In this document: one piece after another, positions 1,995 to 44,800 of the stretch
Position numbering within the stretch: position 1 is the stretch's first letter
How the letters are laid out: every line of letters begins with the position of its first letter
Assembly: GCA_025526935.1 (NCBI GenBank)
Contig: JAHLKD010000112.1
Location: forward strand, 1 to 64,000
Length of the DNA: 64,000 nucleotides
Reading direction: 5' to 3'
From: Cladochytrium replicatum
Taxonomy: Eukaryota > Chytridiomycota > Chytridiomycetes > Cladochytriales > Cladochytriaceae
Translations under genes and position numbers: made by a program
Notes under the pieces: model-generated
The model's input: the letters and a program-made list of their open reading frames with translations, nothing else
What the model was told of the DNA's origin: nothing
Databases searched by the model: none

Positions 1995-3629
1995 ATGCCT
2001 CGAACTACAAAGAAGCGAGCGTTGAAACAATCCAGACCATCATCTGAAAGAGAATCAAGTGCAGAACCTGTGACTGCACCTGAAACATCTCTGGGATCGG
2101 GTTCTGAAGTGGAAGAAGCAGAAGTTGGCCTTGATGTCAAATCGACAGATGTCAAACCGACAGCTCCTTCAAAGAAACCGGCGCGACGTGGTACTAAAGA
2201 GGATGCTGAGTATTTGCTCATCGACAGACTCTGTCCTGCTTCAGACATACGACTTTGGTATCAAAAATTCAAAGCAAGCGGCCACAGCTACGACTCGGAG
2301 GACTTCATCAGCAACTGTCAAACAAATCGTGATGAATGCGGCCCAAGATTTGTTCTTCAAGGGTTGATCGACCGACTTGACTCTGACAGCAAGCTAGTTC
2401 GTCAAGCCCTGAATGAAATTCAAGATGAATGCAGTGGATGAACGGAGTTCATAACAGCAGCAAACGCCTATCGTATGGAGTGCTTGAAAAGCTCTTCCTT
2501 TCAGAAGGAAACAACATTTCTGGACTTTTACAGGTGGCAGGGACACAAGTACGGCATTTACAGAGGAATGCCTGCAAAGGTTGACGAGTTCCAAGCGACC
2601 ATCAAACGAGCAGATGAGGACAGTGAAAGGACAAAACAGGTCCTCAAACAGTCAGAACGGCTGTTGAACATGATAAAAGATCTTGAAGAGACTGCAATGA
2701 ACGAGAGAAGGACCCGCATCGCAGCAGAAGTGCGAGAGAAGGCTCTCATTGATGAATTGGGCAGGGCGGGTGCATTGTTTCAGCACGGCGAGCACTAAGA
2801 GCTAGCAAGATTCAGGGAGATCACCGCTGCAATGGAAAGGGAGAAGCAGGCAACTTCCCAGGAGATTTCACAATGGAAATCACGTGTGACCGCCCTGGAG
2901 GGAGAGCTTGCTGCTCTGAAACGACAGGCTGGTCATTCAGAAGCTGCAGCACCTGCAGCGCCAACATCAACAGGCGGCCTAATAAGCATATGGTCGGCTA
3001 TCAAAGGGATTGGTAGAATTCCAAAGGTACATCAAACCAGTTCTCCAACGAGTTCCCTTGCATTGCTTAGCCTGCAGCAGCACCATCGTACGGCTATCCT
3101 TTTGGTGAAAGAGGTCATCCAGGGTATCTGCTTCCAGATGCATAAGATCAATGAGGTTATTTATGACCTTAAATTGCCGTCTCTTCCACCATCAATCAAG
3201 TACGTCAACGTAAACTACGAAGTCCTCTCCCGAAATGAGTTTTTATGGCCCATATTTGTTGAATCAGACGACCGCTCAAGCCGAATATCAACTTCAAGTA
3301 GCAGTGGAAGTGTGAACTTTCCAGCCCTAAGCCAGATGGCAATGGACTATTTAGGAATACCAGCAACAAGCGCTCCAGTCGAACGACAGTTTTCAGCCGG
3401 GGTTGATTTGGTACCTGCAACTCGCAACCGCCTTGCTCCAAGAACAATAAATGCGTTGATGTGCCGTCATGACTGGTTGCATCAATTGAGTGCTGAAGAA
3501 CCGTTCAAAAATGATTCCCTAGATTCAAAAAGTGATGTTAGTGAGGATTTTGTAAAGGTGCATAATTTTGGCGAGGATTTTGATGTGGTATTAGAGTTGG
3601 AAGCAACTGATGATAACCCACTCTTTTAA
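1995..3629 (+). pseudogene. Chimeric ORF: ORF B N-terminal part fused in frame to ORF A C-terminal part
   Basis: One frame runs from ATG 1995 to the stop at 3629, interrupted by two in-frame stops. The TGA at 2439-2441 stands where the other copy has CGA, a CpG-to-TpG type change. The TAA at 2796-2798 stands where the other copy has GAA. Bases 1995-3305 are ORF B (basic N-terminus, coiled coil, conserved block VIQGICFQMHKINEVIYDLK). At 3305/3306 the sequence switches within one base to the hAT C-terminal region (GSVNFPALSQMAMDYLG). The matching half-chimera is on the minus strand at 42082-44560. The join is in frame but the gene is broken, so a functional fusion protein is unlikely from this copy. 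Confidence 0.85.
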
Positions 3630-4246
3630 ATATAAATTGTTGTTTAGACTGTTCATCTGTTGAAGTACCGTCCAGGAGTTGAGAAAGCGACCGCCTGGAC
3701 AGAATCCTATTACAAGTAGTATTTATAGAGAGGTTGGTTGTACTTGATCGAGATCAGTGAAGTATCAGTGAAGGACCGTCAATGAGTTGAGAAAGAGTCC
3801 GGGTGGACAGAATCTTATTGCTAGTAACATTATTAGAGAGGTTAGCTGTACTTGATAGAGATCACTGAAGTACCGTCAATGAGTTGAGAAAGTGTCTGGG
3901 TGGACAGAATCCTATTGCTAGTAACATTGATAGAGAGGTTTGTTGTATTGGGTAGAGATCACTGAAGTACCGTCAATGAGTTGAGAAAGTGTCCGGGTGG
4001 ACAGAATCCTATTCTACCCAGACAGACACAGTGACACTCAGTCTCCCAGATTTCTGTCCACCCGGACAGAATCCTCTCTATCAATGTTACTAGCCAGTTT
4101 CTTCCCTAGCTTATTATTATTTTCAGATCGGGTAGAAAACTATAGTGTCAGGGAAGTATTATAGCATACATTCCTGTAACATTCCGGCTAAGAACACCGG
4201 GCCAGTATCTTCCCACGACAAAGAGTACAAACACCATGCCTCGAAC
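3630..4246. repeat. Giant array and ORF B leader and start, truncated by Copia-1
   Basis: About four reversed array units (3660-4015), the turnaround, a partial forward unit, then the ORF B leader. ORF B's ATG is at 4235; only MPRT is present before the Copia-1 LTR begins at 4247. Under the inversion model this belongs to a second ORF B, from partner element Y. Confidence 0.85.
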
Positions 4247-4685
4247 TGTTGAGTGTTGTTTCGTTCATAAAAGTTTTCCTTCTTTGTTTTTACTTTCAAA
4301 AAGAAAAAGTTCAGCTGAGGATAACAATAGGATTATTGTTGATCCTCAGAATCGAACTTGCGACATGATGTTGAATGGCTTGCGATTTAACCCACGACGC
4401 TAGCTTTGTTGTTTCCCAAAAGTTTTATTTCTGTTTCTATTTCGGCTTCATGTTCTTCGACGAAAACTTCAAAAGCCAGCGTTCCAGAAAATTCCGGATC
4501 ACCAGCAAACTTGAAGGGGACTTACCAAAGGAGGAAGGAGAGCGCCGCTGCTGACGTGGCAAGGACAAATTAAGGGAGGCTTTGTTGGGAATGGGAGAAC
4601 CTATAAAAGGTGTGAGTCTTAAGCTTCCAATACATCGAACAAGTACCTCTTATCTGATCTTACCTGCCTACGACGAAATTCTACA
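4247..4685 (+). repeat. Copia-1 5' LTR
   Basis: Starts TGTTGAGTG and ends TTCTACA, so it has the short TGTTG..(C)TACA-type ends of Copia LTRs. A TATAAAAG-like promoter (CCTATAAAAGG) lies at about 4602. Copies of the same LTR occur at 9070-9506, 34520-34958 and 40370-40808. Confidence 0.92.
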
Positions 4686-5473
4686 TGGTAGCAATGGATT
4701 CTCGCTCTTCCCAACAACAACCGAAACCAACGGCGCTCATGACCCGCAAAGCTCAGGATGACAATCTCTTTGTCTTTGATGGAGAGAATTATCATACCTG
4801 GCGACTCCGCATGGTGGCCTATCTCGAGGGCAAGGAGCTCTGGACAGTTGTCGACAAGGGACCAAATCCTGACCCACGACTGCGAACTGGTTTTGACGAG
4901 ACTAGCAATGCTGGCAAGGCCGAAATCGCCGCCCATGAAGAAAGTGTTCTGGATGATCGCAAGGCCCGATCCAAGATCATCGGGAAGCTCAGCAACGTCG
5001 TACTTTCGCTTGTCACCAGCGCGAACACCGCAAAGGCGATGCTCGTAGCCCTCGATCAGATGTACCAGCGCCAGGCCAACGTCAACAGGATCACACTCCG
5101 ACGCGAGCTAATGGGGAAAAAGATGAGTACCGGGTCTGATCTTAAGACCCACATCTCGGAACTTGCCATGATTGTCCAGAGACTGACCGCTATTGGTGAT
5201 TCCATTTCCCCAGACCAGCACATCATCTACCTGCTCAGCTCCCTCCCTCCGGAATTCGATACTGTGATTGCCACAATTGACGTTGAGGATGACACCCGCC
5301 GAAAGGACTACCAATATGTTGTCGGCCGACTTCTCGACGACGAAAGCAAACGACGAAGTCGCGAAAACGAGGAAGGTAACAGTCGAGATCAAGCTTATCA
5401 GACCTCCGGCGGCAACCAACGACTTTGCTGGAACTGTAGCCAGCCAGGCCACTTTCGCTGCCAACTGTCCTAA
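4685..5473 (+). pseudogene. gag: Copia-1 gag (frame broken at its 3' end)
   Basis: It encodes 262 residues before a stop. The N-terminal third has the Copia gag signature (FDGENYHTWRLRMVAYLEG, residues about 33-51), followed by the helical capsid-like region of the UBN2/gag-polypeptide family. Near the end is a zinc knuckle beginning CWNCSQPGH, but the final Cys is lost because one extra T near 5453 shifts the frame. One base back, the frame gives the expected CX2CX4HX4C spacing and runs straight into protease. Copia gag-pol is normally one ORF, so this is read as a mutation and not as a programmed frameshift. The start could be the ATG at 4685 (overlapping the LTR) or at 4694. Confidence 0.85.
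4686..4697 (+). promoter_or_regulatory. Copia-1 primer binding site (initiator tRNA-Met type)
   Basis: TGGTAGCAATGG follows the LTR directly. TGGTAGCA is complementary to a ...UGCUACCA 3' end, as in eukaryotic initiator tRNA-Met. Only the first eight bases fit well. The site overlaps the ATG at 4685 and a second ATG at 4694. Confidence 0.7.
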
Positions 5474-8400
5474 CCAGACCTCGAGTTTGGGTGGTTCAAA
5501 TCAAGGCTCTGGAAACGGACGAGGTGGTAGCGGAGGTCGAGGAGGTCGAGGTGGCGGACGAGGTACTGGAAGAGGCGGTCGAGGTCGAGGGAGCGGCGGT
5601 AGAGGACGCGGTCGAGGAAATGGAGGATCCAACCGCGGTGGCGGAAGAAGCGGTGGGCACGCAAACGAAGTAACGCTACCTGCGATTGCGTTCATGGCTT
5701 CGGAGAGATTCTCTGATCGATCTTCTAAGTGGTTCTTCGACACTGGGGCTTCGCACCACCTGTGCAACGATCAAAGGGCGTTCATCGAGTTGCGGAAGAT
5801 TACTCCGATTGAGATCGACACCGCAAATGCTGGATCAGGACTCAAGGTTGTCGGGATCGGAAGAGTTCGATTGCTGGTATCAGTTGGAGGGCGGGAGAGG
5901 GAGGTGATCCTTAGTGAAGTGTACTTCGCTCCGAACCTGTCTGACAACTTGGTATCATGGAATCGACTCATAGAACACCGTCTCAAGCTCTACGGTGCTG
6001 GCAAGAAGATCCAGATCGGTCGCAACAATGAGATAGTCATGGAGTTCACACAAGATAAGACTTGCAACTTGTTTGCACTTGATCTGTCCCGATCGATCGC
6101 CAGGGTGGCACGACGTAACGACGCAACAGCGGATCTCATCACTTGGCATAGAAGGTTCGGACATGCTGGATTCAATCGGATCGAGGAGGCCCAGAAGCTA
6201 GTTGAAGGAATGGAGATCGATGGAACTGAGAGGTTGGACCCTTGTCCGACCTGTGTGAAAGCTAAGTTGACCAGAACTAGCTTTCCACGGATCAAGGACA
6301 TTGACGTTAATTCCCATAGCACCCTCTACATCGATCTCCAAGGACCAATAAAGCCGCCCACCTACGGAGGTGCAATCTATGCCGCGGTCGCAGCACACAG
6401 GAACTCTGGAGTCCTGGTTATACGCCCCCTGAAAACCAAGGATCTGGCATTCGAGTTCAGTCAAGATGCCGTGCGAGAGATAGGACTCCTTACTGGCAAG
6501 GAGGTCCAAGTAGTTGTCACCGACAACCCAAAAGAGTTGATTTCACAAAAGTACGAGGCATGGGCACGGAAGCGCGGCATTCAACATCACACTACCATGC
6601 CGTACACCCCGATGCAGAATGGACCTGTTGAGCGAGCAAATCGGACCCTCCAAAATCTTACACGAGCTATGTTAAATGAGGCAGGGGCAAACAGCAAGCT
6701 ATGGGGCGAGGCGATGGTAACAGCATGTTACCTAAACAACCGGCTCCCGCGCAAGATCGGCAAGACGAGTATTACGCCATTGGAGGCCGCGACAGGCAGA
6801 AAACCAAACGTCAGCAAACTGCGGACCTGGGGATGCGTGGCATACGTGCACGATCCCCTCCCATCGGGCAAGCTAGCAGATTGAGCGATCCCAGGAATCT
6901 TCGTTGGATACGAAGCATTCGGATTTCGTGTCTGGGACCCGAAAAGGAAAGTAATGATGAGAAGCAAGTCGGTGGTGTTTGATGAGAAGCATACCTGGAA
7001 TGAGCGAGCCCTTACTGATGCCCTTGAACTGGTCTCTTTCGAAAACCTCCCCCAACACAGAGACTCGGCAAAACCGCTCAAACACACCGACTTGGCCAGC
7101 AACAACAGCGACAGCGATGACAGCAGCTATAGAGATAGCGACAGCGACAACAGTGAGGGGGAGGTCGAGACCAATTCAAGGGACAAGGACACGGAATCGG
7201 AGGACGACAAAGTAGAGGTGCAAGATCCTGGGCTATTGAAGCAGAAACCCAGCACTAGTAAGATTCCTGTGCGCCGAGGAAGCCGAGAGAAAAGGCCAGT
7301 CGAACGGTATGGCTTTGAGAAGGTGAAACAAGTCGGATCGGCACGAGTAGCCTCGAAAAGGAAGGTGATCTTGCACACGGAACCAAGGACGTATGAGGAA
7401 GCCATGGCGAGCCTGGAGAAGGAGGACTGGACGGCTGCCATGCAAGAGGAGATCCTTGCGCATCGCGAGAACTCAACGTGGCGACTTGTACCGAGGCCTG
7501 CAGGGCGAAACATCATCAAGTCAGGCTGGGTATATCGCTACAAGACGAACGCCGAGGGGAAGATGGTTCGGCACAAGGCGCGGTTCATTGCGAAAGGATA
7601 TTCGCAACGCGAGGGAGAGGACTTTGATGAGACGTTTTCTCCGGTGGCTCGAAAACAAACTGTTCGAGTTGTGTTGGCGCTCGTGGTGCAGGAACGGATG
7701 GTGATGCGCCAGTACGACATCAAAACAGCGTTCCTGAATGCGCGCATCATCGACCGCGAACTCTACTACGAGCAGCCAGAGGGATTCATTGAACCGGGCA
7801 AGGAAGATTGGGTCTGCTTAGCTATTCGTGCGCTTTATGGCCTCAAGCAGCCGCCTCGCGAGTGGAATAGTCTCTTCGACGATTTCCTAGTGACCGTCAT
7901 CAAGCTGAAACGTTCCGATAGCGATGTCTGCCTCTACTACCATCGAGAGGGATCGTCGCTCACGCTTGTCGTCATCTACGTGGACGATATTCTGGTGGCG
8001 TCGACCGATGAGGACGAGGTGAATCGAATCGAGGAGTTGATGAAGCGACGATTTGAGGTCAGCGAGGCAGGATCCCCGAAGTATTATCTCGGCTGGGAAA
8101 TTGACTACGATAAGGACGGCGGCAAGCTCACCATCTCTCAAGCGCAGTACATCAGAATGTCGGCGAAGAAATGTAAGATCAGATTCGAGCGGAAAACACC
8201 AGTTGAAGCTGGCGTTACAATCTTCAAGGATATGGGAGAGGAGATCGAGGTCGAGCGAAATGAGATTAGCTATCGCACAATCGTCGGTCAGCTCCTATAC
8301 GCCGCGACGAGCACACGACCCGATATCTCGTTTGCCACTGGCACCGTTGCGCGTTATCAAAACGCACCTCAGTACACTCATTGGTGCGCGGCGGAACGGG

Positions 8401-8948
8401 TGCTCGCCTACCTGCTGCACACTCCCTCAATTGGAATCCGCTATGGACGACGAGATCGCCTTGAGATTGTATGCTATGCGGACGCGGATCACGCCGGAGA
8501 TCCTGACAACAAAAAGTCGACTACGGGATATGCTATCTTGATCAATGGGGGAGCTGTTGCCTGGGGGAGCAAGCTTCAAACATCAGCGGCGAGTTCGACA
8601 GCAGAAGCGGAGTACGTTGCACTATCCACAGCTAGCGACGAACTCGTTTGGGTAAAGCACATGCTTGAAGAACTTGGATATTCCTTTGCTGCTCCGCCTG
8701 TAGTCCACTGCGACAATACCGCTGCAATTGCTGGTGCCCGCAATCCCGGATTCAAGTCCCGGCATATCGCTTTGCGATATCACATCGTGCGTGGCCGCAT
8801 TCAATCTGGGGACATTGACGTGCAGTATATCCCCACAGAGGATCAGGTGGCAGACATCTTCACCAAGGGTCTCGCACGACGTCGACATGAGAAACTGATG
8901 GGTCTACTTGGGATGGTAGATGCAATGAAAGAGATGAGAGAAAATTAG
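5454..8948 (+). pseudogene. pol: Copia-1 pol: protease, integrase, RT, RNase H
   Basis: One frame, with a single in-frame TGA at 6882-6884. In order: a Gly/Arg-rich linker (about 5500-5660), aspartic protease (WFFDTGASHHLC near 5731), integrase zinc finger (WHRRFGH ... CPTC, about 6143-6250) and integrase core with acidic residues in YIDLQGP, VVTDNPKELIS and NGPVERANRTL. After the stop come the RVT_2 reverse transcriptase (YDIKTAFLNA, LYGLKQPPREW, YVDDILVAS near 7978) and RNase H (CYADADHAGD, SSTAEAEYVALS, HCDNTAAI). The TGA sits where GAT-CGA-GCG would keep the frame, which fits methyl-CpG deamination. Apart from this stop and the upstream frameshift, every catalytic motif is present. Confidence 0.92.
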
Positions 8949-9055
8949 GTTTTGTTTCTTGAAGGACACACCAATTATGTTTGCATTCCTTCTGGCTTCT
9001 ATGTTTGTTTTTCAATTGTTATTTCTTTTCAACTTTCAAAGGAAGAACTTTTGTT

Positions 9056-9069
9056 CAGAAACGGGGGAG
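9056..9069 (+). promoter_or_regulatory. Copia-1 polypurine tract
   Basis: The purine run AGAAACGGGGGAG directly precedes the 3' LTR (TGTTGAG at 9070), the usual place for plus-strand priming. Confidence 0.75.
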
Positions 9070-9506
9070 TGTTGAGTGTTGTTTCGTTCATAAAAGTTTT
9101 CCTTCTTTGTTTTTACTTTCAAAAGAAAAAGTTCAGCTGAGGATAACAATAGGATTATTGTTGATCCTCGGAATCGAACTTGCGACATGATGTTGAATGG
9201 CTTGTGGTTTAACCCACGACGCTAGCTTTGTTGTTGTCCAAAAGTTCATTCCTGTTTCTATTTCGGCTTCATGTTCTTCGACGAAAACTTCAAAAGCCAG
9301 CGTTCCAGAAAATTCCGGATCACCAGCAAACTTGAAGGGGACTTACCAAAGGAGGAAGGAGAGCGCCGCTGCTGACGTGGCAAGGACAAATTAAGGGAGG
9401 CTTTGTTGGGAATGGGAGAACCTATAAAAGGTGTGAGTCTTAAGCTTCCAATACATCGAACAAGTACCTCTTATCTGATCTTACCTGCCTACGACGAAAT
9501 TCTACA
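9070..9506 (+). repeat. Copia-1 3' LTR
   Basis: 437 bp with the same ends as the 5' LTR. It differs from it at scattered sites (for example GTGGTTTAAC against GCGATTTAAC). Confidence 0.92.
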
Positions 9507-10057
9507 AAGAGGTCATCCAGGGTATCTGCTTCCAGATGCATAAGATCAATGAGGTTATTTATGACCTTAAATTGCTGTCTCTTCCACCATCAATCAAGTA
9601 CGTCAATGTAAACTACGAAGTCCTCTCCCAAAATGAGGCTTTACAGCCCATATTTGTTGAATCAGACGACCGCTCAAGCCGAATATCAACTTCAAGTAGC
9701 AGTTCTCGGAGCAGCCTTACTCTTCTTAGGGTGATTTTGCTCGGAAACTGGATACGGCACAATAATTCGCTAAGTACGTCTGCCACTATCTATCGCATGT
9801 TCAGGGCATTAGTGGATGCATATCCTTCTGAGTGGCTAAGGTTCTGGACGGCATACATCGGGCATCTTTCGTCCATAACGCTCCCTGAGGTGGATTGGAA
9901 ACCTTGGAAGAGGTTTAGCCAAGGATTTCATGCTTTCAAATGACGACATTGATCGGTTCATCAGGACTGGGTTGGCGAAGGACGTAACCAGTGGTGGATG
10001 GGACTCTGACGATATGAACCAGATACAGAAGCTGATTTGGGCTGTTCCACTATCAAC
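9507..10057 (+). pseudogene. ORF B, C-terminal fragment
   Basis: Begins abruptly after the Copia-1 LTR, inside the block KEVIQGICFQMHKINEVI, and matches 23208-23770. A small deletion near 9910 (TGGAAGAGG against TGGAAGACAGG) shifts the frame before the conserved tail that ends LIWAVPPINL in the reference copy. Confidence 0.85.
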
Positions 10058-10192
10058 TTGTGATTGCTCAGTGGAGTTTTGTTTCTTTTTACGATAGTGT
10101 TTCTAAAATACACACTGTTCACACAGACACAAAGTGTTCATGTAAATATCCGTAGTCTAACTCAAAATTCAATCAATCCTCTCCTGGGCAGC

Positions 10193-10363
10193 AAAAACCC
10201 GGCGGGTCAGGGTCGGGTACGGGTTTCAACCACTTCGGGTCCGGGTATTCCCTTTGTACCCGTCAGTGACCCGGCGGGTCGCCAGACAAACACGACCTGA
10301 CCTAAAGGGTTTGGTGCGGGTCGCCACTGAAACCCGGACCCGACCCGGACCCGCCGAACCTTA
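10193..10363 (+). repeat. Giant right end (G-rich on the minus strand)
   Basis: GC-rich terminal block built from GGGTC/CCCGA words. It can fold on itself (CCCGGCGGGTCAGGGTCGGG against its near-complement about 120 bases later). It ends ..CCGCCGAACCTTA at 10363, the consensus right tip seen at 24070 and 33859. Confidence 0.9.
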
Positions 10364-10371
10364 GACGGCAT
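10364..10371 (+). repeat. 8-bp target duplication GACGGCAT (right-end side)
   Basis: It directly follows the Giant right tip. The same 8-mer, inverted, follows the left tip at 45580. An 8-bp duplication is the hAT hallmark. Confidence 0.85.
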
Positions 10372-11542
10372 TGAGGGTCTGCAAGGTAATTCTATGCAGT
10401 GAAGATTGGGCATCGGGAAGAATCAATTATCTGACGCCAGAATTACTGGTCAGTGCTGATAAAAAACTTCAAGATGAAGTGCCTCCAGGGACTAGCATTG
10501 ATGATCTATTCTGAAAGGACATGGCCGATATTGCAGATTTTCTCGAAGTATTTTACCTACTCACCAAACGTGTGCAGAGCGAAACTCAAGTTCCATACAA
10601 CGAGCTCATTCACCTGTTCAACATCATGTTCAACAAAGTTGAGGAAGGACAATTAAGTCCGATTGAAGTTGTTAAAAAAAGCAGCACACTGTATGATAAG
10701 GTTGTGAGCTCATTTGAATTCAATGTGATACTTTGTACTTTTAGAAAGCTGGGCTACGATCCACGACTATATGCTACAAATGACGAGGTGACAGTCACAG
10801 CACTGATGCTGGATCCACGTCATAAGCGAGTTTATTTCAAGCAAAACAAGTGGGTTCACGTATAGCCAAAGAGATGGAAAAGCAGTATGTATTCATGGTT
10901 TCACAATCCAAATTTAACCTAACCTGATAGGGCATTGCTAGCTTGAAAACAACGGTTAAGCGGTATGCAGATGAAAACCCAGGCATCTACAGGGACAATT
11001 AGACTGATTCCACGGCTTCTGTGAATGGGCTTGATGCACTCATTTGGGGTGGATCAAGAGGAAAAGCACACAGGGTAACATATATTATCATAGAAAATCC
11101 ACTTGATGTTTATTGTTTATTTAAATTTGATGAGGTGCGTACTTGGGAGGACGAACTTGAGCAGTTCCTGTCAAGTCCAACTGCCGATGAGAAAATGAAC
11201 CCTCTTGAGTGGTGGAAGATGTACGCCCTTTACTACCTGTTGCTCTCACTTGTGGCCCATGACCATTTTGTGATCTGTCTTTCTAGTGCTGCATCAGAAC
11301 GTCTCTTCTCAGCAGGCGGTCTTACTTTGCAAAAGAACCGCCATAACAAGTCCGGACAAACTTTAGGAGCAATCATGGGTCTGACAAATTGGTGGGCAGT
11401 TGGTGGACTTATGGAGCTCTTGGACATGATAAGATGGTCTGTGCAGGTTGCAGATGCGGGTTCTGTGAATGAGGACGATTTGGTGGAAATGTTTGGTATC
11501 GAATCTGAGGAAGTACGGTTTGGGATGGGGCTAAGAACCTGA
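10372..11542 (+). pseudogene. hAT-III transposase, C-terminal half
   Basis: A second, unrelated hAT transposase in decayed pieces. Frame 10521-10865 has the MLDPRHK motif typical of the region before the hAT dimerisation domain. Frame 11021-11542 has NPLEWWK and then SSAASERLFSAGG, the classic hAT C-terminal signature, and ends in an acidic tail. Several frame breaks separate the pieces. Its N-terminal half is at 45589-47530 on the other strand; the two were contiguous before Giant inserted and the segment inverted. Confidence 0.88.
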
Positions 11543-16982: not shown

Positions 16983-17165
16983 TAAGGATCGGCGGGTTTT
17001 AGGGTCTTTCGGGTCGGGTCCGGGTCCATTGACTAAATGTACCCGACCCGAGTGCCGGGTTTTCATGGAAAATTTTCGGGTCGGATCCGGGTCGGGTATC
17101 GGGTCCAGTAGGAAAACCCTTCTCGGGGCAAAAGTCAGACCCGAGTAAAACCCGATGTGATAGAG
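16983..17165 (+). repeat. Giant left terminal block
   Basis: About 180 bases of GGGTC/GGGTT words. Near the tip there are five GGG runs separated by 5, 6, 2 and 3 bases, a canonical G-quadruplex pattern on the plus strand. Copies of this end are at 39741 (+), 45580 (-) and, diverged, 34985-35160 (-). Confidence 0.88.
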
Positions 17166-17194
17166 AATCTAAAACGAAGCTATTGTTCTTTCTG

Positions 17195-18350
17195 TCCACG
17201 CGGACACTTTCCAAGAAGACGCAATATACGTTTTGTATGTATCAAACAATTTTGCATCACAACGGACATCAAGGCATGTATTTTCTGTCCACCCGGACAC
17301 TTTCTCAACTCATTGACGTACTTCAGTTATCTCTACCCAATACAACTAACCTCTCTATCAATGTTACTAGCAATAAGATTCTGTCCACCCGGACACTTTC
17401 TTAACTCATTGACGGTACTTGAGTGATCTCTATCAAGTACAACTAACATCTCTATCAATGTTACTAGCAATAAAATTCTGTCCACCCGGACACTTTCTCA
17501 ACTCATTGACGGTACTTCAGTGATCTCTATCAAGTACAGCTAACCTCTCTATCAATGTTACTAGCAATAAGATTCTGTCCACCCGGACACTTTCTTAACT
17601 CATTGACGGTACTTGAGTGATCTCTATCAAGTACAAACTAACATCTCTATCAATTTTACTAGCAATAAAATTCTGTCCACCCGGACACTTTCTCAACTCA
17701 TTGACGGTACTTCAGTGATCTCTATCAAGTACAGCTAACCTCTCTACCAGCAATAAGATTCTGTCCACCCGGACACTTTCTTAACTCATTGACGGTACTT
17801 GAGCGATCTCTATCAAGTACAAACTAACATCTCTATCAATGTTACTAGCAATAAGATTCTGTCCACCCGGACACTTTCTCAACTCATTGACGGTACTTCA
17901 GTGATCTCTATCAAGTACAGCTAACCTCTCTACCAGCAATAAGATTCTGTCCACCCGGACACTTTCTTAACTCATTGACGGTACTTGAGCGATCTCTATC
18001 AAGTACAAACTAACATCTCTATCAATGTTACTAGCAATAAGATTCTGTCCACCCGGACACTTTCTCAACTCATTGACGTACTTCAGTTATCTCTACCCAA
18101 TACAGCTAACCTCTCTATCAATGTTACTAGCAATAGGATTCTGTCCACCCGGACACTTTCTCAACTCATTGACGTACTTCAGTTATATCTACCCAATACA
18201 GCTAACCTCTCTATCAATGTTACTAGCAATAGGATTCTGTCCACCCGGACACTTTCTCAACTCATTGACGTACTTCAGTTATCTCTACCCAGTACAACTA
18301 ACCTCTATCAATGTTACTAGCAATACGATTCTGTCCACCCGGACACTTTC
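17195..18350 (+). repeat. Giant left tandem array, about 12 units of about 97 bp
   Basis: Units start with CTGTCCACCCGGACAC at about 17284, 17380, 17477, 17575, 17671, 17760, 17858, 17947, 18045, 18140, 18237 and 18330. A more distant unit lies at 17195. The first 13-16 bases of each unit are themselves a short palindrome (GTCCACCCGGAC). Variants with CTCAAC or CTTAAC alternate, so the array grew partly as dimers. Open frames through it are artefacts of unit length. Confidence 0.92.
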
Positions 18351-18470
18351 CAAGAAGTCACAACGGAAGTTCTGTAACAAACAATTTCTACCACGACAGA
18401 CCTCGAGAGCTGTGCTTTCTGTGCACCTGGACATTAGAGTCGGTAACGTTCCAGCCACACCACAGCAAAA

Positions 18471-20907
18471 ATGGACGCCGCCTTTGTTAAACCAAAGCGT
18501 AAGGCAGCGTCCGACGCAAGCCAAAGACTGGTGGACAGTCATCCGCTTGACACACGGAAGCGAAGTCTGCCAGCCCCCCAAATTTCAGAGGCGTCCAGCG
18601 AGGGGAACATCATGCAGGACAAACGCAGACGTGGATCAGGACACGGTGGCAACAACAGCGCTCGAGAGCCGAGCTCCACATCTTCTTCCAATGACTCCAG
18701 CGAGGTGGGCCCGGCTTCTCAGCATGCACCACAGCTTCCTGCCGACGTTAGTTTTGCTGACTCTTCAGTGCGACAGGAGCCTGCAGCTGGATCAGTTCAA
18801 CCATCAATGCTTTCATCAGACGCAGATGTTGATAGCATGTCGGACTGTAGAGGTAGTCGAGGCGGCATAGCGAAGGATTACTATAAGGTTGATAATGGTC
18901 TGAGAACATGTTTGGTTGCGAAATGCAAGTGGAGCCAGAAGGTCGATAAGACGGGATCAACAAAAAACTTCCTCCGGCATCTGAAAAACCACCATGGAAG
19001 TATTGCCAGGTCGCTTGGACTGTTGGACATCGTCCCCAAGGGACAACAGACATTGAATTTCGGCTCGCAGGAGAAGGAGCAAAACTTTGTGTTCAATCCA
19101 GACGTAGCGTGGCGGTCGATTTTGGACTGGATTGCTGCAGACAATCAGGCTTTTACTGTTGTGGAGAACGAGTTCTTTGTCAGCATGCTGAAGACTTTTC
19201 AGCCAAACTATACACCAAAGACGGCAAAAGCAGTGAAGCAAAAGGAGATGGATCTTTACGATAGGCAGAAGGAGCTCATTAAAGGTCTGATTGTTGGTTC
19301 GCCTTCAAAAGTATCAATAACAGCTGACTGTTGGACATCGAAGAACCAGATTTCTTTTCTTGGAATTACTGCCCACTTCATCACGAAAGAATGGGAGCCA
19401 CAGGACTTGCTGCTGCAGATGATTCCGATGGTTGGAAAGCATGAAGGCGTCGCCATGGCTAGTCAGCTTGTCAAGTGTCTGGATGAATTTGGCATGCTAT
19501 CGGGTGAACGCTTATTGTGCATTACAACCGACAACGGTTCAAACAACTTTACCATGAGTGCTAAGCTGGAGACGCTCTTGGAAGATAGGGATATTGCGTG
19601 GTCTGCAGAAACTCAACACATGCGGTGTATGGCACACATTATCAATCTTGCAGCAAAGGATTTTATCGATACAGTCGCGCCCGCAGGGGACACAGTCGCA
19701 AATGACGATAACTCCGGCGTTAATGTCATAAACCTTCTTCGACGGCTAGTCAGAGGAATCCGGTCTTCCCCAAAACGACGAAGCTCATTTATTGATTCGT
19801 GCCGATTTGTGAAACTGGTTCCTCTATTACCAATTATCGATGTGACAACTCGCTGGAATAGCACGTTCTATATGGTCAAACGAGCCTTACAGCTACGAGA
19901 GGCAATGGACAAAATATGCTGGATTGAAGATTCTTTGAAAGATTGGTCAATAAATCCAAAGCAATGGGAGGTCCTACAGAAGATCCGGGATGGTTTGAGT
20001 GTTTTCGAGGTTATATCAAAGGCAATCAAGGGGTCTAGATATCCAACACTTCCGCTTGTTATTCCATTTTACAACGATCTTATCGATCAACTGGAGGACC
20101 TAGAGGATGCAGAATTAGATGAAACTTTCACCAAAGCATTTCAAAATGCACTAGATAAGCTGAGAATATATTACTCAATCGCTAAGAGCCCGTGTTTAGC
20201 AGTTGCTACGGTACTCGATCCTCGTTTTAAGGATCAATATTATCGATTTTCAAAGGCTTGGGAGAAAGATGTAGGAAGGGATCAGGTCACCCTAGTGCGG
20301 AAAGTCTGGGAGGAATTGTATAAGTCACGGAAAATCAAGAACAGTGGTGCCGATGTTTTTGGAAACACGCCAGAACGTCGACACGATTCGAGCGGAGCTT
20401 CCGGTGATAGACAGAAAAAATACGGACGCTGAACGCTTGAGAGCCATTAGATCCGTTTTCATCTGGCAAGAAGAGATTCCTGAGGAAAAAGATGAGCTGG
20501 ATCGCTATCTTGGCGATCAGGTACTCCGCGGTATTGATTCTGATGGGAAGCCAATCAATATTATGGACTGGTGGAAGACCGTTGGAAGTGTGAACTTTCC
20601 AGCCCTAAGCCAGATGGCAATGGACTATTTAGGAATACCAGCAACAAGCGCTCCAGTCGAACGAAAGTTTTCAGCCAGGGTTGATTTGGTACCTGCAACT
20701 CGCAACCGCCTTGCTCCAAGAACAATAAATGCGTTGATGTGCCGTCATGACTGGTTGCATCAATTGAGTGCTGAAGAACCGTTCAAAAATGATTCCCTAG
20801 ATTCAAAAAGTGATGTTAGTGAGGATTTTGTAAAGGTGCATAATTTTGGCGAGGATTTTGATGTGGTATTAGAGTTGGAAGCAACTGATGATAACCCACT
20901 CTTTTAA
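18471..20907 (+). pseudogene. ORF A: BED-finger hAT transposase (one-base frameshift)
   Basis: ATG 18471. Frame 1 runs to a TGA at 20430-20432; the remainder reads in the next frame to 20907. Order: Ser/Arg-rich N-terminus, BED zinc finger (CLVAKC ... FLRHLKNHH, residues about 143-175), first catalytic Asp region (SITADCWTSKNQISFLGITA, about 280-300), CITTDNGSNNFTMS (about 345-360), CMAHIINLAAKDF, DVTTRWNSTFYM (about 455), TVLDPRFKDQYY (about 580), then the dimerisation region SAPVERKFSARVDLV and RHDWL. The frame break is an extra T at about 20420: six A then TACGG, where the minus-strand copy has seven A then CGG. The encoded protein would cut and paste the element in the nucleus. Confidence 0.9.
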
Positions 20908-20937
20908 ATATAAATTGTTGTTTAGACTGTTCATCTG

Positions 20938-21940
20938 TTGAAGTACCGTCCAGGAGTTGAGAAAGCGACCGCCTGGACAGAATCCTATTACAAGTAGTAT
21001 TTGTAGAGAGGTTGGTTGTACTTGATCGAGATCAGTGAAGTATCAGTGAAGTACCGTCAATGAGTTGAGAAAGTGTCCGGGTAGACAGAATCTTATTGCT
21101 AGTAACATTATTAGAGAGGTTAGCTGTACTTGACAGAGATCACTGAAGTACCGTCAATGAGTTGAGAAAGTGTCCGGGTGGACAGAATCCTATTGCTAGT
21201 AACATTGATAGAGAGGTTTGTTGTATTGGGTAGAGATAACTGAAGTACGTCAATGAGTTGAGAAAGTGTCCGGGTGGACAGAATCTTATTGCTAGTAAAA
21301 TTGATAGAGAGGTTAGCTGTACCTGATAGAGATTACTGAAGTACCGTCAATGAGTTGAGAAAGTGTCCGGTTGGACAGAATCGTATTGCTAGTAACATTG
21401 ATAGAGAGGTTAGTTGTATTGGATAGAGATCACTGAAGTACCGTCAATGAGTTGAGAAAGTGTCCGGGTGGACAGAATCTTATTGCTAGTAAAATTGATA
21501 GAGAGGTTAGCTGTATTGGGTAGAGATAACTGAAGTACGTCAATGAGTTGAGAAAGTGTCCGGGTGGACAGAATCTTATTGCTAGTAACATTGATAGAGA
21601 GGTTAGCTGTATTGGGTAGAGATAACTGAAGTACGTCAATGAGTTGAGAAAGTGTCCGGGTGGACAGAAATCTGGGAGACTGAGTGTCACTGTGTCTGTC
21701 TGGGTAGAATAGGATTCTGTCCCCCCGGACACTTTCTCAACTCATTGACGGTACTTCAGTAATTTCTATCAGGTACAGCTAACCTCTCTATTAATGTTAC
21801 TAGCAATAAGATTCTGTCCACCCGGACACTTTCTCAACTCATTGACGGTACTTCAGTGATCTCTATCAAGTACAGCTAACCTCTCTATCAATTTTACTAG
21901 CAATAAGATTCTGTCCACCCGGACAGAATCCTCTCTATCA
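20938..21940. repeat. Giant central array: reversed units, turnaround, forward units
   Basis: About seven reversed units (20938-21667), a turnaround at 21668-21715 (CTGGGAGACTGAGTGTCACT), then two to three forward units to about 21935. The region is a large imperfect palindrome between the two genes and shares units with the left array. It would act as 3' region of ORF A and 5' region of ORF B. Confidence 0.9.
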
Positions 21941-22092
21941 ATGTTACTAGCCAGTTTCTTCCCTAGCTTATTATTATTTTCAGATCGGGTAGAAAACTAT
22001 AGTGTCAGGGAAGTATTATAGCATACATTCCTGTAACATTCCGGCTAAGAACACCGGGCCAGTATCTTCCCACGACAAACAGTACAAACACC

Positions 22093-23770
22093 ATGCCTCG
22101 AACTACAAAGAAGCAAGCATTAAAACAATCCAGACCATCATCTGAAAGAGAATCAAGTGCAGAACCTGTGACTGCACCTGAAACATCTCTGGCATCGGGT
22201 TCTGAAGTGGAAGAAGCAGAAGTTGGCCTTGATGTCAAATCGACAGATGTCAAATCGACAGCTCCTTCAAAGAAACCGGCGCGACGTGGTACTAAAGGGG
22301 ATGCTGACTATTTGCTCATCGACGGACTCTGTCCTGCTTCAGACATACGACTTTGGTATCGAAAATTCAAAGCGAGCGGCCACAGCTACGACTCGGAGGA
22401 CTTCATCAGCAACTGTCAAACAAATCGTGATGAATGCGGCCCAAGATTGTTCTTCAAGGGTTGATCGACCGACTTAACTCTGACAGCAAGCTAGTTCGTC
22501 AAGCCCTGAACGAAATTCACGATGAATGCAGTGGACGAACGGAGTTCATAACAGCAGCAAACGCCTATCGTATGGAGTGCTTGAAAAGCTCTTCCTTTCA
22601 GAAGGAAACAACATTTCTGGACTTTTACAGGCGGCAGGGACACAAGTACGGCATTTACAGAGGAATGCCCGTCACTGCAAAGGTTGACGAGTTCCAAGCG
22701 ACCATCAAACGAGCAGGGACCGTGAAAGGACAAAACAGGTCCTCAAACAGTCAGAACGACTGTTGAACATGACAAAAGATCTTGAAGAGACTGCAATGAA
22801 CGAGAGAAGGACCCGCATCGCAGCAGAAGTGCGAGAGAAGGCTCTCATTGATGAATTGGGCAGGGCGGGTGCATTGATTCAGCACGGCGAGCACGAAGAG
22901 CTAGCAAGATTCAGGGAGATCACCGCTGCAATGGAAAGGGAGAAGCAGGCAACTTCCCAGGAGATTTCACAATGGAAATCACGTGTGACCGCCCTGGAGG
23001 GAGAGCTTGCTGCTCTGAAACGACAGGCTGGTCATTCAGAAGCTGCAGCACCTGCGTCGCCAACATCAACAGGCGGCCTAATAAGCATATCGTCGGCTAT
23101 CAAGGGGATTGGTAGAATTCCGAAGGTACATCGAACCAGTTCTCCAACGAGTTCCCTTGCATTGCTTAGCCTGCAGCAGCATCGTCGTACGGCTATCCTT
23201 TTGGTGAAAGAGGTCATCCAGGGTATCTGCTTCCAGATGCATAAGATCAATGAGGTTATTTATGACCTTAAATTGCCGTCTCTTCCACCATCAATCAAGT
23301 ACGTCAATGTAAACTACGAAGTCCTCTCCCGAAATGAGTTTTTACGGCCCATATTTGTTGAATCAGACGACCGCTCAAGCCGAATATCAACTTCAAGTAG
23401 CAGTTCTCGGAGCAGCCTTACTCTTCTTAGGGTGCACATTTTGCTCGGAAACTGGATACGGCACAATAATTCGCTAAGTACGTCTGCCACTATCTATCGC
23501 ATGTTCAGGGCATTAGTGGATGCATATCCTTCTGAGTGGCTAAGGTTCTGGACGGCATACATCGGGCATCTTTCGTCCATAACGCTCCCTGAGGTGGATT
23601 GGAAACCTTGGAAGACAGGTTTAGCCAAGGATTTCATGCTTTCAAATGACGACATTGATCGGTTCATCAGGACTGGGTTGGCGAAGGACGTAACCAGTGG
23701 TGGATGGGACTCTGACGATATGAACCAGATACAGAAGCTGATTTGGGCTGTTCCACCTATCAACTTGTGA
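22093..23770 (+). pseudogene. ORF B: coiled-coil accessory protein of Giant, family not recognised
   Basis: I do not recognise this protein. The start MPRTTKK (ATG 22093) and the stop at 23770 are shared with other copies. Visible parts: a basic/acidic low-complexity N-terminus (about 1-75), a conserved block with LIDGLCPASDIRLWYRKFK, a long charged helix likely to be coiled coil (RRTRIAAEVREKALIDEL to ALEGELAALKRQ), a Ser/Thr/Pro linker, then a C-terminal globular part (ICFQMHKINEVIYDLK ... NWIRHNN ... AYPSEWLRFWTAYIGHL ... IQKLIWAVPP). No DDE, nuclease or zinc motif was seen. This copy has a one-base deletion near 22447 (AAGATTGTTC against AAGATTTGTTC) and a small deletion near 22715. The restored length would be near 570-590 residues. 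Its position beside a transposase recalls helper proteins such as MuDR mudrB or Spm TnpA, but that is analogy only. Confidence 0.75.
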
Positions 23771-23895
23771 TTGCTCAGTGGAGTTTTGTTTCTTTTAACG
23801 ATAGTGTTTCTAAAATACACACTGTCCACACAGACACAAAGTGTTCATGTAAATATCCGTGGTCTAACTCAAAATTCAATCAATCCTCTCCTGGG

Positions 23896-24070
23896 CAGCA
23901 AAAACCCGGCGGGTCAGGGTCGGGTACGGGTTTCAACCACTTCGGGTCCGGGTATTCCCTTTGTACCCGTCAGTGACCCAGCGGGTCCCCAGACAAACAC
24001 GACCCGACCCAAAGGGTTTGGTGCGGGTCGCCACTGAAACCCGAACCCGACCCGGACCCGCCGAACCTTA
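23896..24070 (+). repeat. Giant right terminal block
   Basis: Ends CCGCCGAACCTTA at 24070. On the minus strand the tip reads GGCGGGTCCGGGTCGGG, again a G-quadruplex pattern. The block is internally palindromic, with about 30-base arms and about 90 bases between them. Confidence 0.9.
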
Positions 24071-35940: not shown

Positions 35941-35968
35941 TGCGGTTGCTACGTGGTGTCACGCTTAA

Positions 35969-36510: not shown

Positions 36511-36529
36511 TTTCCAATTGTTTCTCAGA

Positions 36530-38915: not shown

Positions 38916-39740
38916 GAAATTTCTATTTATCGCATAAATCATCAATCATATCAGATGCATTTGAAAGTCGGTGTACGCAAACTCCAGCATGGCCCTGTAG
39001 AGAGGACGCTCAAAAGTCTATCCATCCGATATTGAAACCAAGGAAGGGGTAGCCAGTCGGAGACTACCAATCCACACATATGCCGTAGTAATCATGCTTG
39101 AGTCCATGCAAAAAGTTCCTGTGCGGTGGGTCTGCTCATCGTGTTGCCAGGATGTTGTTTCTGTCCTTTATTTGACCTATACTTGAGCTTGGTTTAGGAC
39201 TTATTCGGCCTTCGGCTACTCAGCTTCAGGTACTCGAGCGCTTTTGTTATCATGCACCGTCTTTTTTCACTACTCCATACTGCTTCACATGTTGGCTTGT
39301 TGCTGTTTGTGCAAATTCCTACTTTTGAGTTCAGGCTGAAGTACGTATGTTTGCTTGCTGGTCTAGTGATTCCAGCCCTACCCTCCGTTTGTCTTTTTGA
39401 TCTGCCTCCGCTCTCTTGTTGAACCCCACGCGCCAGAGCCCTGCCCTGCCCTTCTGCAGCCATTCTGTTCACCTCTGTTCCTCTCTCTCCTGGGCACCTC
39501 GCTACAGTCCCTCTCTCTCCTGCCACTCTCTTCACCTCTCTCTGCACCAGATGGGGTTACTCAGCAGATAGCCCTTGACCAATGCAATTTTGTGCTCCCT
39601 GCCACCTGAACTACCCTCTGCTTTGCCCTACCTCACTATGCGAGCATCTTCTTGCGCACTCTGGCAATGTTGCCTCCTTTCAGCAGCTTGCCCAGATGCT
39701 TCTCTGCTTGCCACTTGGGTGGCCCCTGCTGCTTTACTGA
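38916..39740. other. Unassigned stretch with a short LINE-like match
   Basis: 39166-39205 resembles 36995-37030 (the CTATTTGACCTA..TTGGTTTA region of the LINE remnant). 39370-39560 is C/T-rich (pyrimidine-biased). No coding frame supported. Confidence 0.4.
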
Positions 39741-40369
39741 CAAGGATCGGCGGGTTTTAGGGTCTTTCGGGTCGGGTCCGGGTCCATTGACTAAATGAAC
39801 CCGACCCGAGTGCCGGGTTTTCATGGAAAATTTTCGGGTCGGATCCAGGTCGGGTATCGGGTCCAGTAGGAAAACCCTTCTCGGGTCAAAAGTCAGACCC
39901 AAGTAAAACCCGATGTGATAGAGAAGCTAAAACGAAGCTATTGTTCTTTCTGTCCACGCGGACACTTTCCAAGAAGACGCAATATAAGTTTTGTATGTAT
40001 CAAACAATTTTGCATCACAACAGACATCGAGGCATGTATTTTCTGTCCACCGGACACTTTCTCAACTCATTGACGTACTTCACTTATCTCTACCCAATAC
40101 AACTAACCTCTCTATCAATGTTACTAGCAATAAGATTCTGTCCACCCGGACACTTTCTTAACTCATTGACGGTACTTCAGTGATCTCTATCAAGTACAGC
40201 TAACCTCTCTATCAATGTTACTAGCAATAAGATTCTGTCCACCCGGACACTTTCTTAACTCATTGACGGTACTTGAGTGATCTCTATCAAGTACAAACTA
40301 ACATCTCTATCAATGTTACTAGCAATAAGATTCTGTCCACCCGGACACTTTCTCAACTCATTGACGTAC

Positions 40370-40808
40370 TGTTGAGTGTTGTTTCGTTCATAAAAGTTTT
40401 CCTTCTTTGTTTTTACTTTCAAAAAGAAAAAGTTCGGCTGAGGATAACAACAGGATTATTGTTGATCCTCAGAATCGAACTTGCGACATGATGTTGAATG
40501 GCTTGTGGTTTAACCCACGACGCTAGCTTTGTTGTTTTCCAAAAGTTTTATTTCTGTTTCTATTTCGGCTTCATGTTCTTCGACGAAAACTTCAAAAGCC
40601 AGCGTTCCAGAAAATTCCGGATCACCAGCAAACTTGAAGGGGACTTACCAAAGGAGGAAGGAGAGCGCCGCTGCTGACGTGGCAAGGACAAATTAAGGGA
40701 GGCTTTGTTGGGAATGGGAGAACCTATAAAAGGTGTGAGTCTTAAGCTTCCAATACATTGAACAAGTACCTCTTATCTGATCTTACCTGCCTACGACGAA
40801 ATTCTACA
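40370..40808 (+). repeat. Copia-1 solo LTR with target duplication CGTAC
   Basis: 439 bp within a Giant array unit, flanked by CGTAC at 40365-40369 and 40809-40813. Confidence 0.94.
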
Positions 40809-41013
40809 CGTACTTCAGTTATCTCTACCCAGTACAACTAACCTCTCTATCAATGTTACTAGCAGTACAATTCTGTCCACCCGGACACTTTCCAAGAAGT
40901 CACAACGGAAGTTCTGTAACAAACAATTTCTACCACGACAGACCTTGAGAGCTGTGCTTTCTGTGCGCCTGGACACTTAGAGTCGGTAACGTTCCAGCCA
41001 CACCACAGCAAAT

Positions 41014-41802
41014 ATGGACGCCGCCTTTGTTAAACCAAAGTGTAAGGCAGCGCCCAACGCAAGCCAAAGACTGGTGGACAGTCATCCGCTTGACACACGG
41101 AAGCGAAGTCTGCCAGCCCCCCAAATTTCAGAGGCGTCCAGCGAGGGGAACAGCATGCAGGACAAGCGCAGACGTGTATCAGGACACGGTGGCAACAACA
41201 GCGCTCGAGAGCCAAGCTCCACATCTTCTTCCAATGACTCCAGCGAGTTGGGCCTGGCTTCTCAGAATGCACCAGAGCTTCCTGCCGACGTTAGTTTTGC
41301 TGACTCTTCAGTGCGACAGGAGCCTGCAGCTGGATCAGTTCAACCATCAATGCTTTCATCAGACGCAGATGTTGATAGCGTGTTGGACTGTAGAGGTAGT
41401 CGAGGCGGCATAGCGAAGGATTACTATAAGGTTGATAATGGTCTGAGAACATGTTTGGTTGCGAAATGCAAGTGGAGCCAGAAGGTCGATAAGACGGGAT
41501 CAACAAAAAACTTCCTCCGGCATCTGAAAAACCACCATGGAAGTATTGCCAGGTCGCTTGGACTGTTGAACATCGTCCCCAAGGGACAACAGACATTGAA
41601 TTTTGGCTCGCAGGAGAAGGAGCAAAACTTTGTGTTCAATCCAGACGTAGTGTGGCGGTCGATTTTGGACTGGATTGCTGCAGACAATCAGGCTTTTACT
41701 GTTGTGGAGAACGAGTTCGTTGTCAGCATGCTGAAGACTTTTCAGCCAAACTATACGCCAAAGACGGCAAAAGCAGTGAAGCAAAAGGAGATGGATCTTT
41801 AA
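41014..41802 (+). pseudogene. ORF A N-terminal fragment (BED finger)
   Basis: Open frame of 262 codons, nearly identical to the start of the 18471 copy, including CLVAKCKWSQKV and the BED histidines. It ends at KQKEMDL where the inserted element begins; the TAA at 41800-41802 is formed by the junction. Confidence 0.88.
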
Positions 41803-44800
41803 TATGGTTCGGCGGGTCCGGGTCGGGTCCGGGTTTCAGTGGCGACCCGCACGTGTTTGTCTGGGGACCCGCTGGGTCACTGACGGGTACAAAGGGAATA
41901 CCAGGACCTGAAGTGGTTGAAACCCGTACCCGACCCTGACCCGCCGGGTTTTTGCTGCCCAGGAGAGGATTGATTGAACTTGAGTTAGAACATGGATATT
42001 TACATGAACACTTTGTGTCTGTTTGGACAGTGTGTATTTTAGAAACACTATCGGAAAAAGAAACAAAACTCCACTGAACAATCACAAGTTGATAGGTGGA
42101 ACAGCCCAAATCAGCTTCTGTATCTGGTTCATATTGTCAGAGTCCCATCCACCACTGGTTACGTCCTTCGCCAACCCAGTCCTGATGAACCGATCAATGT
42201 CGTCATTTGAAAGCATGAAATCCTTGGCTAAACCTGTCTTCCAAGGTTTCCAATCCACCTCAGGGAGCGCTATGGACCAAAGATGCCCGATGTATGCCGT
42301 CCAGAACCTTAGCCACTCAGAAGGATAAGCATCCACTAATGCCCTGAACATGCGATAGATAGTGGCAGACGTACTTAGCGGATTATTGTGCCTTATCCAG
42401 TTTCCGAGCAAAATGTGCACCCTAAGAAGAGTAAGGCTGCTCCGAGCAACGGTCTTCCACCAGTCCATAATATTGATTGGCTTCCCATCAGAATCAATAC
42501 CGCGGAGTACCTGATCGCCAAGATAGCGATCCAGCTCATCTTTTTCCTCAGGAATCTCTTCTTGCCAGATGAAAACGGATCTAATGGCTCTCAAGCGTTC
42601 AGCGTCCGTTTTTTTCTGTCTATCAACGGAAGCTCCGCTCGAATCGTGTCGACGTTCTGGCGTGTTTCCAAAAACATCGGCACCACTGTTCTTAATTTTC
42701 CGTGACTTATACGATTCCTCCCAGACTTTCCGCACTAGGGTGACCTGATCCCTTCCTACATCTTTCTCCCAAGCCTTTGAAAATCGATAATATTGATCCT
42801 TAAAACGAGGATCGAGTACCGTAGCAACTGCTAAACACGGGCTCTTAGCGATTGAGTAATATATTCTCAGCTTATCTAGTGCATTTTGAAATGCTTTGGT
42901 GAAAGTTTCATCTAATTCTGCATCCTCTAGGTCCTCCAGTTGATTGATAAGATCGTTGTAAAATGGAATAACAAGCGGAAGTGTTGGATATCTAGACCCC
43001 TCGATTGCCTTTGATATAACCTCGAAAACACTCAAACCATCCCGGATCTTCTGTAGGACCTCCCATTGCTTTGGATTTATTGACCAATCTTTCAAAGAAT
43101 CTTCAATCCAGCATATTTTGTCCATTGCCTCTCGTAGCTGTAAGGCTCGTTTGACCATATAGAACGTGCTATTCCAGCGAGTTGTCACATCGATAATTGG
43201 TAATAGAGGAACCAGTTTCACAAATCGGCACGAATCAATAAATGAGCTTCGTCGTTTTGGGGAAGACCGGATTCCTCTGACTAGCCTTCGAAGAAGGTTT
43301 ATGACATTAACGCCGGAGTTATCGTCATTTGCGACTGTGTCCCCTGCGGGCGCGAATGTATCGATAAAATCCTTTGCTGCAAGATTGATAATGTGTGCCA
43401 TACACCGCATGTGTTGAGTTTCTGCAGACCACACAATATCCCTATCTTCCAAGAGCGTCTCCAGCTTAGCACTCATGGTAAAGTTGTTTGAACCGTTGTC
43501 GGTTGTAATGCACAATAAGCGTTCACCCGATAGCATGCCAAATTCATCCAGACACTTGACAAGCTGACTAGCCATGGCGACGCCTTCATGCTTTCCAACC
43601 ATCGGAATCATCTGCAGCAGCAAGTCCTGCGGCTCCCATTCTTTTGTGATGAAGTGGGCAGTAATTCCAAGAAAAGAAATCTGGTTCTTCAATGTCCAAC
43701 AGTCAGCTGTTATTGATACTTTTGAAGGCGAACCAACAATCAGACCTTTAATGAGCTCCTTCTGCCTATCGTAAAGATCCATCTCCTTTTGCTTCACTGC
43801 TTTTGCCGTCTTTGGTGTATAGTTTGGCTGAAAAGTCTTCAGCATGCTGACAAAGAACTCGTTCTCCACAACAGTAAAAGCCTGATTGTCTGCAGCAATC
43901 CAGTCCAAAATCGACCGCCACGCTACGTCTGGATTGAACACAAAGTTTTTCTCCTTCTCCTGCAAGCCAAAATTCAATGTCTGTTGTCCCTTGGGGACGA
44001 TGTCCAACAGTCCAAGCGACCTGGCAATACTTCCATGGTGGTTTTTCAGATGCCGGAGGAAGTTTTTTGTTGATCCCGTCTTATCGACCTTCTGGCTCCA
44101 CTTGCATTTCGCAACCAAACATGTTCTCAGACCATTATCAACCTTATAGTAATCCTTCGCTATGCTGCCTCGACTACCTCTACAGTCCGACATGCTATCA
44201 ACATCTGCGTCTGATGAAAGCATTGATGGTTGAACTGATCCAGCTGCAGGCTACTGTCGCACTGAAGAGTCAGCAAAACTAACATCGGCAGGAAGCTCTG
44301 GTGCATGCTGAGAAGCCTGGCCCAACTCGCTGGAGTCATTGGAAGAAGATGTGGAGCTCGGCTCTCGAGCGCTGTTGTTGCCACCGTGTCCTGATACACG
44401 TCTGCGTTTGTCCTGCATGCTGTTCCCCTCGCTGGATGCCTCTGAAATTTGGGGGGGCTGGCAGACTCCGCTTCCGTGTGTCAAGCGGATGACTGTCCAC
44501 CAGTCTTTGGCTTGCGTCGGACGCTGCCTTACGCTTTGGTTTAACAAAGGCGGCGTCCATTTTTGCTGTGGTGTGGCTGGAACGTTACCGACTCTAATGT
44601 CCAGGTGCACAGAAAGCACAGCTCTCGAGGTCTGTCGTGGTAGAAATTGTTTGTTACAGAACTTCCGTTGTGACTTCTTGGAAAGTGTCCGGGTGGACAG
44701 TATCGTATTGCTAGTAACATTGATAGAGGTTAGGTGTACTGGGTAGAGATAACTGAAGTACGTCAATGAGTTGAGAAAGTGTCCGGATGGACAGAATCCT

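Follow-up and report, generated by a model that had tools for sequence, protein, structure and literature searches.

The stretch of DNA analysed here ("the window") is bases 1–64000 of contig C112 (170,639 bp) of Cladochytrium replicatum, a saprobic chytrid. Giant-like sequence makes up 29.6% of it, Giant being the name that the initial annotation of the window gave to a 7.1-kb hAT-type transposon. That annotation proposed that the segment 3306–42446 had been inverted between two inverted Giant copies, here called X and Y, and the proposal is supported by the uniqueness of the two junctions in the assembly (50.5 Mb in 198 contigs) and by the divergence of the copies, marginally so at the left junction. 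The first base of the window is also the first base of the contig, so tests on the left side are limited. The features concerned are listed below, with positions in the reference Giant copy P preceded by that letter (ORF, open reading frame; LTR, long terminal repeat).

1–3305, plus strand: copy X part 1, Giant P 20095–23404, its left part lying beyond the contig (self-BLAST; divergence)
3305–3306, plus: junction J1, at which ORF B from X meets ORF A from Y, P 23404 to P 20584 (self-BLAST, sequence reading)
3306–4246, plus: copy Y part 1, Giant P 20584 to ~22104 (self-BLAST)
4247–9506, plus: Copia-type LTR retrotransposon nested in Y, with LTRs at ~4247–4685 and ~9070–9506
9507–10363, plus: copy Y part 2, Giant ~P 23207–24070, ending in the right tip ..CCTTA
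10364–10371, plus: target duplication GACGGCAT at the right tip of Y
10364–11542, plus: C-terminal half of a hAT-III element, with an ORF at 11003–11542 that carries the hAT dimerisation domain PF05699
16983–24070, plus: reference Giant copy P, in which neither parental site is divided (self-BLAST, tip reading)
39742–41801, plus: Giant copy Z, which spans P 16984 to ~19258, contains a solo LTR (~40370–40808) and holds the right tip of X
41802–42446, minus: copy X part 2, Giant P 23406 to ~24070, with a slightly altered right tip (divergence)
42447, minus: junction J2, at which ORF A from Y meets ORF B from X, one base off a perfect exchange
42448–45580, minus: copy Y part 3, Giant P 16983–20583, with the left tip TAAGG.. 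(divergence)
45581–45588, minus: target duplication GACGGCAT at the left tip of Y
45581–46574, minus: N-side half of hAT-III, its first 600 bases compared with the genome

Copy P begins with TAAGG.., ends with ..CCTTA and contains a transposase gene (ORF A, here split over two frames) and a second gene, ORF B. A Pfam search finds the hAT dimerisation domain PF05699 in the ORF at 20296–20907 (E=4.7e-21) and an RNase-H-fold match in the transposase (PF14372, 26.4 bits) that is below the cut-off of 27; for ORF B it gave nothing above cut-off. The 18 relatives of the transposase among the matches listed show 28–37% identity, and those of them with a name are mostly Rhizophagus proteins.

Two reciprocal junctions between X and Y

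J1 (3266–3345) reads ..CAAGTAGCAGT joined to GGAAGTGTG.. and J2 (42408–42487, minus strand) reads ..GAAGACCGTT-G-CTCGGAGC.. In self-BLAST, 1–3305 matches P 20095–23404 and 3305–4016 matches P 20583–21294 at J1, and at J2 on the minus strand 45280–42447 matches P 17759–20584 and 42450–41852 matches P 23403–24001. The parent sites are undivided in P, where site A is CCGTT/GGAAG (20583/20584) and site B is GCAGT/TCTCGG (23404/23405). At J1, P 23404 is followed directly by P 20584, and at J2, P 20583 is followed by a single base and then by P 23406; the sole departure from a perfect exchange is 42447, which is G on the minus strand and T in site B. J1 (B/A) and J2 (A/B) share both break sites and are reciprocal, and the parent sites in P confirm the earlier description of the junctions as complementary halves that differ by one base. 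Each of the four half-sites (A-left, A-right, B-left and B-right) occurs three times in the window, with one occurrence apiece in P, X and Y, so that none has been gained and none lost.

Among the findings that the initial annotation named as telling against its reading was the presence of the same fusions in many genomic copies. With up to 3 mismatches allowed in 37, each junction is matched only once in the assembly. The 38-bp A site is identical in all 8 loci retrieved for A, and the B site in all 12 retrieved for B as well as in one A locus; because selection was by identity at the site, these loci show its common form and leave room for variants. If two unrelated rearrangements had given rise to J1 and J2, their sharing both breakpoints to within ~1 bp would be a coincidence of about 1e-7, as estimated from the 7-kb element.

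Both junctions happen to make in-frame fusions. At J1 the ORF at 2799–3629 consists of ORF B and the later part of the dimerisation domain (profile positions 29–84), and at J2 the ORF at 42082–44250 (minus) consists of the transposase, lacking a detectable dimerisation domain, and the end of ORF B. An in-register reciprocal exchange keeps both fusions open or neither, so this would be roughly a one-in-three coincidence and is no sign of function. The distance from site A to site B varies among Giant copies.

A target duplication and a hAT-III element divided between the two sites

The 8-bp sequence GACGGCAT lies outside the right tip that ends at 10363 (plus) and outside the left tip that begins at 45580 (minus), and this pair had been put forward as the target duplication of one element whose ends were separated. 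The same 8-mer recurs in the window at one internal Giant site (9847, 23551 and 42294 minus) and at 53892 minus; it is therefore weak by itself, and the adjacency of the flanks was checked. The two parts of hAT-III outside these tips are neighbors in other copies of that element. Among the 18 N-side hAT-III matches that reach the insertion site (the window's own match left out), N-side and C-side matches adjoin with exactly 8 bp of overlap in 16, and the overlap values of the remaining two are 23 and -365. These empty sites in other hAT-III copies indicate that GACGGCAT is a true target duplication. Since its flanks are adjacent in ordinary hAT-III copies, a single Giant insertion (Y) separated them here.

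The initial annotation counted the two junctions, the split duplication and the divided hAT-III as four independent marks of the inversion. All four are present as described, and the last two are one mark and not two, because GACGGCAT belongs to the hAT-III sequence. The present right copy (41802–45580) has different elements on its two sides; its tip at 41802 lies inside Z and its other tip at hAT-III, so it is not one single insertion.

The Pfam search gave no match for the ORF at 46050–46574 in the N-side half. Many other hAT-III copies have several hundred additional bases at position 450 of the query 45581–46180 (minus), a length difference that could be due either to a deletion in the window copy or to an insertion or intron in the others.

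Divergence of the four pieces

A single exchange between the two copies predicts that divergence from the family majority shifts at J1 and at J2 and pairs across the window. Divergence was counted at positions covered by at least four copies (window pieces and P included), with gaps ignored and the tandem-repeat stretches at P 17283–18353 and 20935–21929 excluded. Giant carries arrays of a ~95–97-bp repeat (17283–18353 and 20939–21925), which are found in inverted form too. The 8 A and 12 B reference loci were chosen by identity to a short query and so lean toward young copies, and two of those retained look poorly aligned (L065, with 37/518 in its last part, and L063, with 20/727 in a part that lies beyond the B region). 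All P values are from two-sided Fisher tests and are uncorrected.

The pieces of X differ from the majority at 38/2315 (1–3305) and 15/596 (41802–42446) positions, or 53/2911 (1.8%) when pooled. Those of Y differ at 12/1389 and, for 42448–45580, 19/2308 positions, or 31/3697 (0.84%) when pooled, and the difference between pooled X and pooled Y has p=5e-4. Across J2 the shift has p=0.0019. Pieces of the same source are alike (X vs X, p=0.17; Y vs Y, p=1.0), and the left and right present-day copies show no difference when taken as wholes (p=0.58). Copy P diverges by 0.2–0.6% in the same stretches. By their divergence the four pieces fall into two source copies as an exchange predicts, clearly at J2 and marginally at J1.

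Probable origin of the inversion

We conclude that the present arrangement is very probably the product of one inversion of 3306–42446 between the inverted Giants X and Y by reciprocal non-homologous end-joining. The event would have started from one chromosome with X and Y in opposite orientations and Y sitting in hAT-III with the duplication GACGGCAT. X would have broken within ORF B and Y within ORF A, and end-joining would then have rejoined the four ends crosswise, flipping the 39-kb segment and producing the B/A fusion on the left and the A/B fusion on the right. The same inversion would have carried apart the two halves of Y, of its target duplication and of hAT-III. This account, with two breaks followed by crosswise end-joining, is the simplest, as it explains all of the marks in one step. 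The direct observations behind it are reciprocal junctions unique in the assembly, the balance of half-sites, the adjacency of the hAT-III flanks and the pairing of divergences; from these we infer simultaneous breaks, the end-joining pathway and the direction of change.

The initial annotation had spoken of a crossover in ORF B of X and ORF A of Y, but we do not read the exchange as a homologous one. Sites A and B are 2.8 kb apart in the element, and the longest word shared by their surroundings (150 bp on each side) is 7, compared with a mean of 7.9 in 50 shuffles, so homology is no greater than chance and a homologous crossover is unsupported. The lack of an above-chance shared word and the one-base change at one joint fit end-joining, which the structure of the joints suggests as the putative repair route.

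Several points weigh against our conclusion. J1 lies just 3.3 kb from the contig start, the left end of X is beyond the contig, and an exact-pattern search of the genome for the expected left flank of X found nothing (a mutated flank would escape it). The divergence shift across J1 is marginal (p=0.055), and for the flank at 49300–50300 the second match is only 73%. Given the share of the window that is Giant, two random breaks would both fall in Giant ~9% of the time, so that the position of the breaks inside Giants may be coincidental rather than causal. The evidence as a whole comes from one assembled haplotype of one strain.

The split duplication and the divided hAT-III, considered by themselves, also fit an alternative absent from the initial annotation, reversed-ends transposition by a hAT transposase. 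The transposase would have paired the right tip of the left copy with the left tip of the right copy and inserted both into hAT-III, inverting the segment and splitting the 8-bp duplication, and the internal fusions would have another origin. Such an event predicts the observed arrangement of tips, duplication and hAT-III; it would also call for an active transposase and for loss of the segment that formerly separated the two copies. The maize element Ac is a hAT element. Inversions of this kind are documented in the account of maize Ac/Ds in PMC8225341, with 8-bp duplications at both junctions. However, reversed-ends transposition yields no J1 or J2, which are reciprocal internal fusions, and it expects even divergence within each present copy, whereas the right copy shifts at J2. 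We therefore rank it second to the end-joining inversion and consider it improbable.

A stepwise route, in which Y would have lost its A–B interval as a circle with a B/A joint, homologous recombination would have brought the circle into X and the two copies would then have undergone a homologous inversion as a separate event, likewise produces both junctions and balanced half-sites, but it needs three events instead of one and leaves the divergence shift at J2 unexplained; we regard it as very unlikely. An assembly artefact (chimeric reads or misjoins within the repeat family) might be suspected because the contig begins within a Giant, the end of contig C6 also seems to fall within one (left tip at 802244, contig end at 806309, ~4 kb away) and the unmatched flanks of many two-tip Giants (below) are also expected from repeat misjoins, but misjoins are expected at near-identical sequence while J1 and J2 link unrelated sequence, and two independent chimeras would lack reciprocity, so there is very little likelihood of this.

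Other elements of the window

The Copia-type element nested in Y has different 5-bp flanks (CGAAC and AAGAG), and ~1.1 kb of Giant (P 22104–23207) is absent where it sits; the two together suggest recombination between two insertions. A betaine-lipid-synthase-like gene lies at 52697–54448 and shows 96% identity to a Cladochytrium replicatum protein.

Giant tips across the genome

At up to one mismatch the assembly contains 242 left and 273 right Giant tips, and the first 100 of each were surveyed (all with zero mismatches and on contigs C1–C61). Pairing of same-strand tips 0.5–12 kb apart gave 49 pairs, of which 47 were read (loci L075–L168) after two with an inner tip had been removed; of the unpaired tips, 60/106 were read. 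The 8-bp flanks of the 47 two-tip Giants match at 8/8 positions in 26, at 6–7/8 in 3 and at no more than 4/8 in 18. The matching 8-bp duplications agree with the placing of Giant in the hAT superfamily. The unmatched copies may be recombinants, products of alternative transposition or repeat misjoins. Copy P also has unmatched flanks, TTGTTCTC within an LTR on the left and CTCTGGAT within a Copia reading frame on the right, and given these it too appears to have been recombined, rearranged or misjoined.

Nine further 8/8 matches occur between tips of different copies (among 77 left and 82 right tips, including five that belong to the window), where we estimate a chance expectation of ~0.1 (77 x 82 / 65536). 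Three of the nine resemble the window signature or a translocation. One is an inverted Giant pair on C6, at 340318–347235 (minus) and 802244 (plus), ~460 kb apart, with the split 8-bp duplication ACGCGCAC in common; the others are two C27–C40 tip pairs with the matching 8-mers CGAGAGAA and GCTTGCTG. The other six have plainer readings: the C40 and C13 matches are long same-strand spans containing nested insertions, the C11 match is a same-strand copy pair inside one outer duplication, and the C14/C58, C8/C23 and C18/C24 matches are at sites in surroundings that are themselves repeated. Cross-copy matches at 7/8 (n=8) were taken as chance or repeated targets; one of them is between the window's GACGGCAT and a C14 copy that has its own duplication.

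A tentative reading, which we think rather unlikely to hold, is that Giant is a genome-wide shuffler. About two-fifths of two-tip copies would then have flanks from two insertion sites, Giants would very often have been rejoined to each other, either through end-joining where the transposase had made breaks or through alternative transposition, and the inversion in the window would be one such event caught with nearly all of its marks. If the unmatched flanks of the 18/47 surveyed copies are genuine rather than assembly errors, a single hAT family has rewired much of the genome of a chytrid.

Comparison with known rearrangements

The window is a good teaching case, as a single sequence displays a balanced inversion together with its reciprocal joints, the split duplication and the divided host element, and it sets end-joining inversion between transposon copies apart from both homologous crossover and alternative transposition. 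Among the maize Ac/Ds reversed-ends inversions described in PMC8225341 there are likewise transposons at both breakpoints and matching 8-bp duplications at the tips of two copies, but the breaks in that account are at the tips with no internal fusion, whereas the window has two that are internal and reciprocal.

Inversion 2z3 of Drosophila buzzatii, as described in PMC2775673, has oppositely oriented chimeric Galileo copies at its breakpoints, with target duplications exchanged. X and Y are also opposite in orientation and both chimeric, with a duplication exchanged; this is seen for Y, and with the left end of X beyond the contig it is the one of two that can be checked. Unlike the Galileo copies in that description, which recombined at corresponding positions, the window breakpoints are 2.8 kb out of register.

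The human rearrangements that PMC9675761 classes as TEMR-NHE (mediated by transposable elements and formed by non-homologous repair) have both breakpoints in one element type at non-overlapping element positions, with a median of 1 bp shared and insertions of 1–23 bp in 35%. The window agrees with that description in having both breakpoints in the same element at non-corresponding positions, no above-chance homology and a small change (one base) at a joint. It differs in that the human events reported there mostly involve Alu and LINE-1, whereas here the element is a 7-kb cut-and-paste transposon of a chytrid, and in that both reciprocal joints and the split target duplication are present on one contig. 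The window inversion is thus most likely an unusually well-marked case of an already known type of event.

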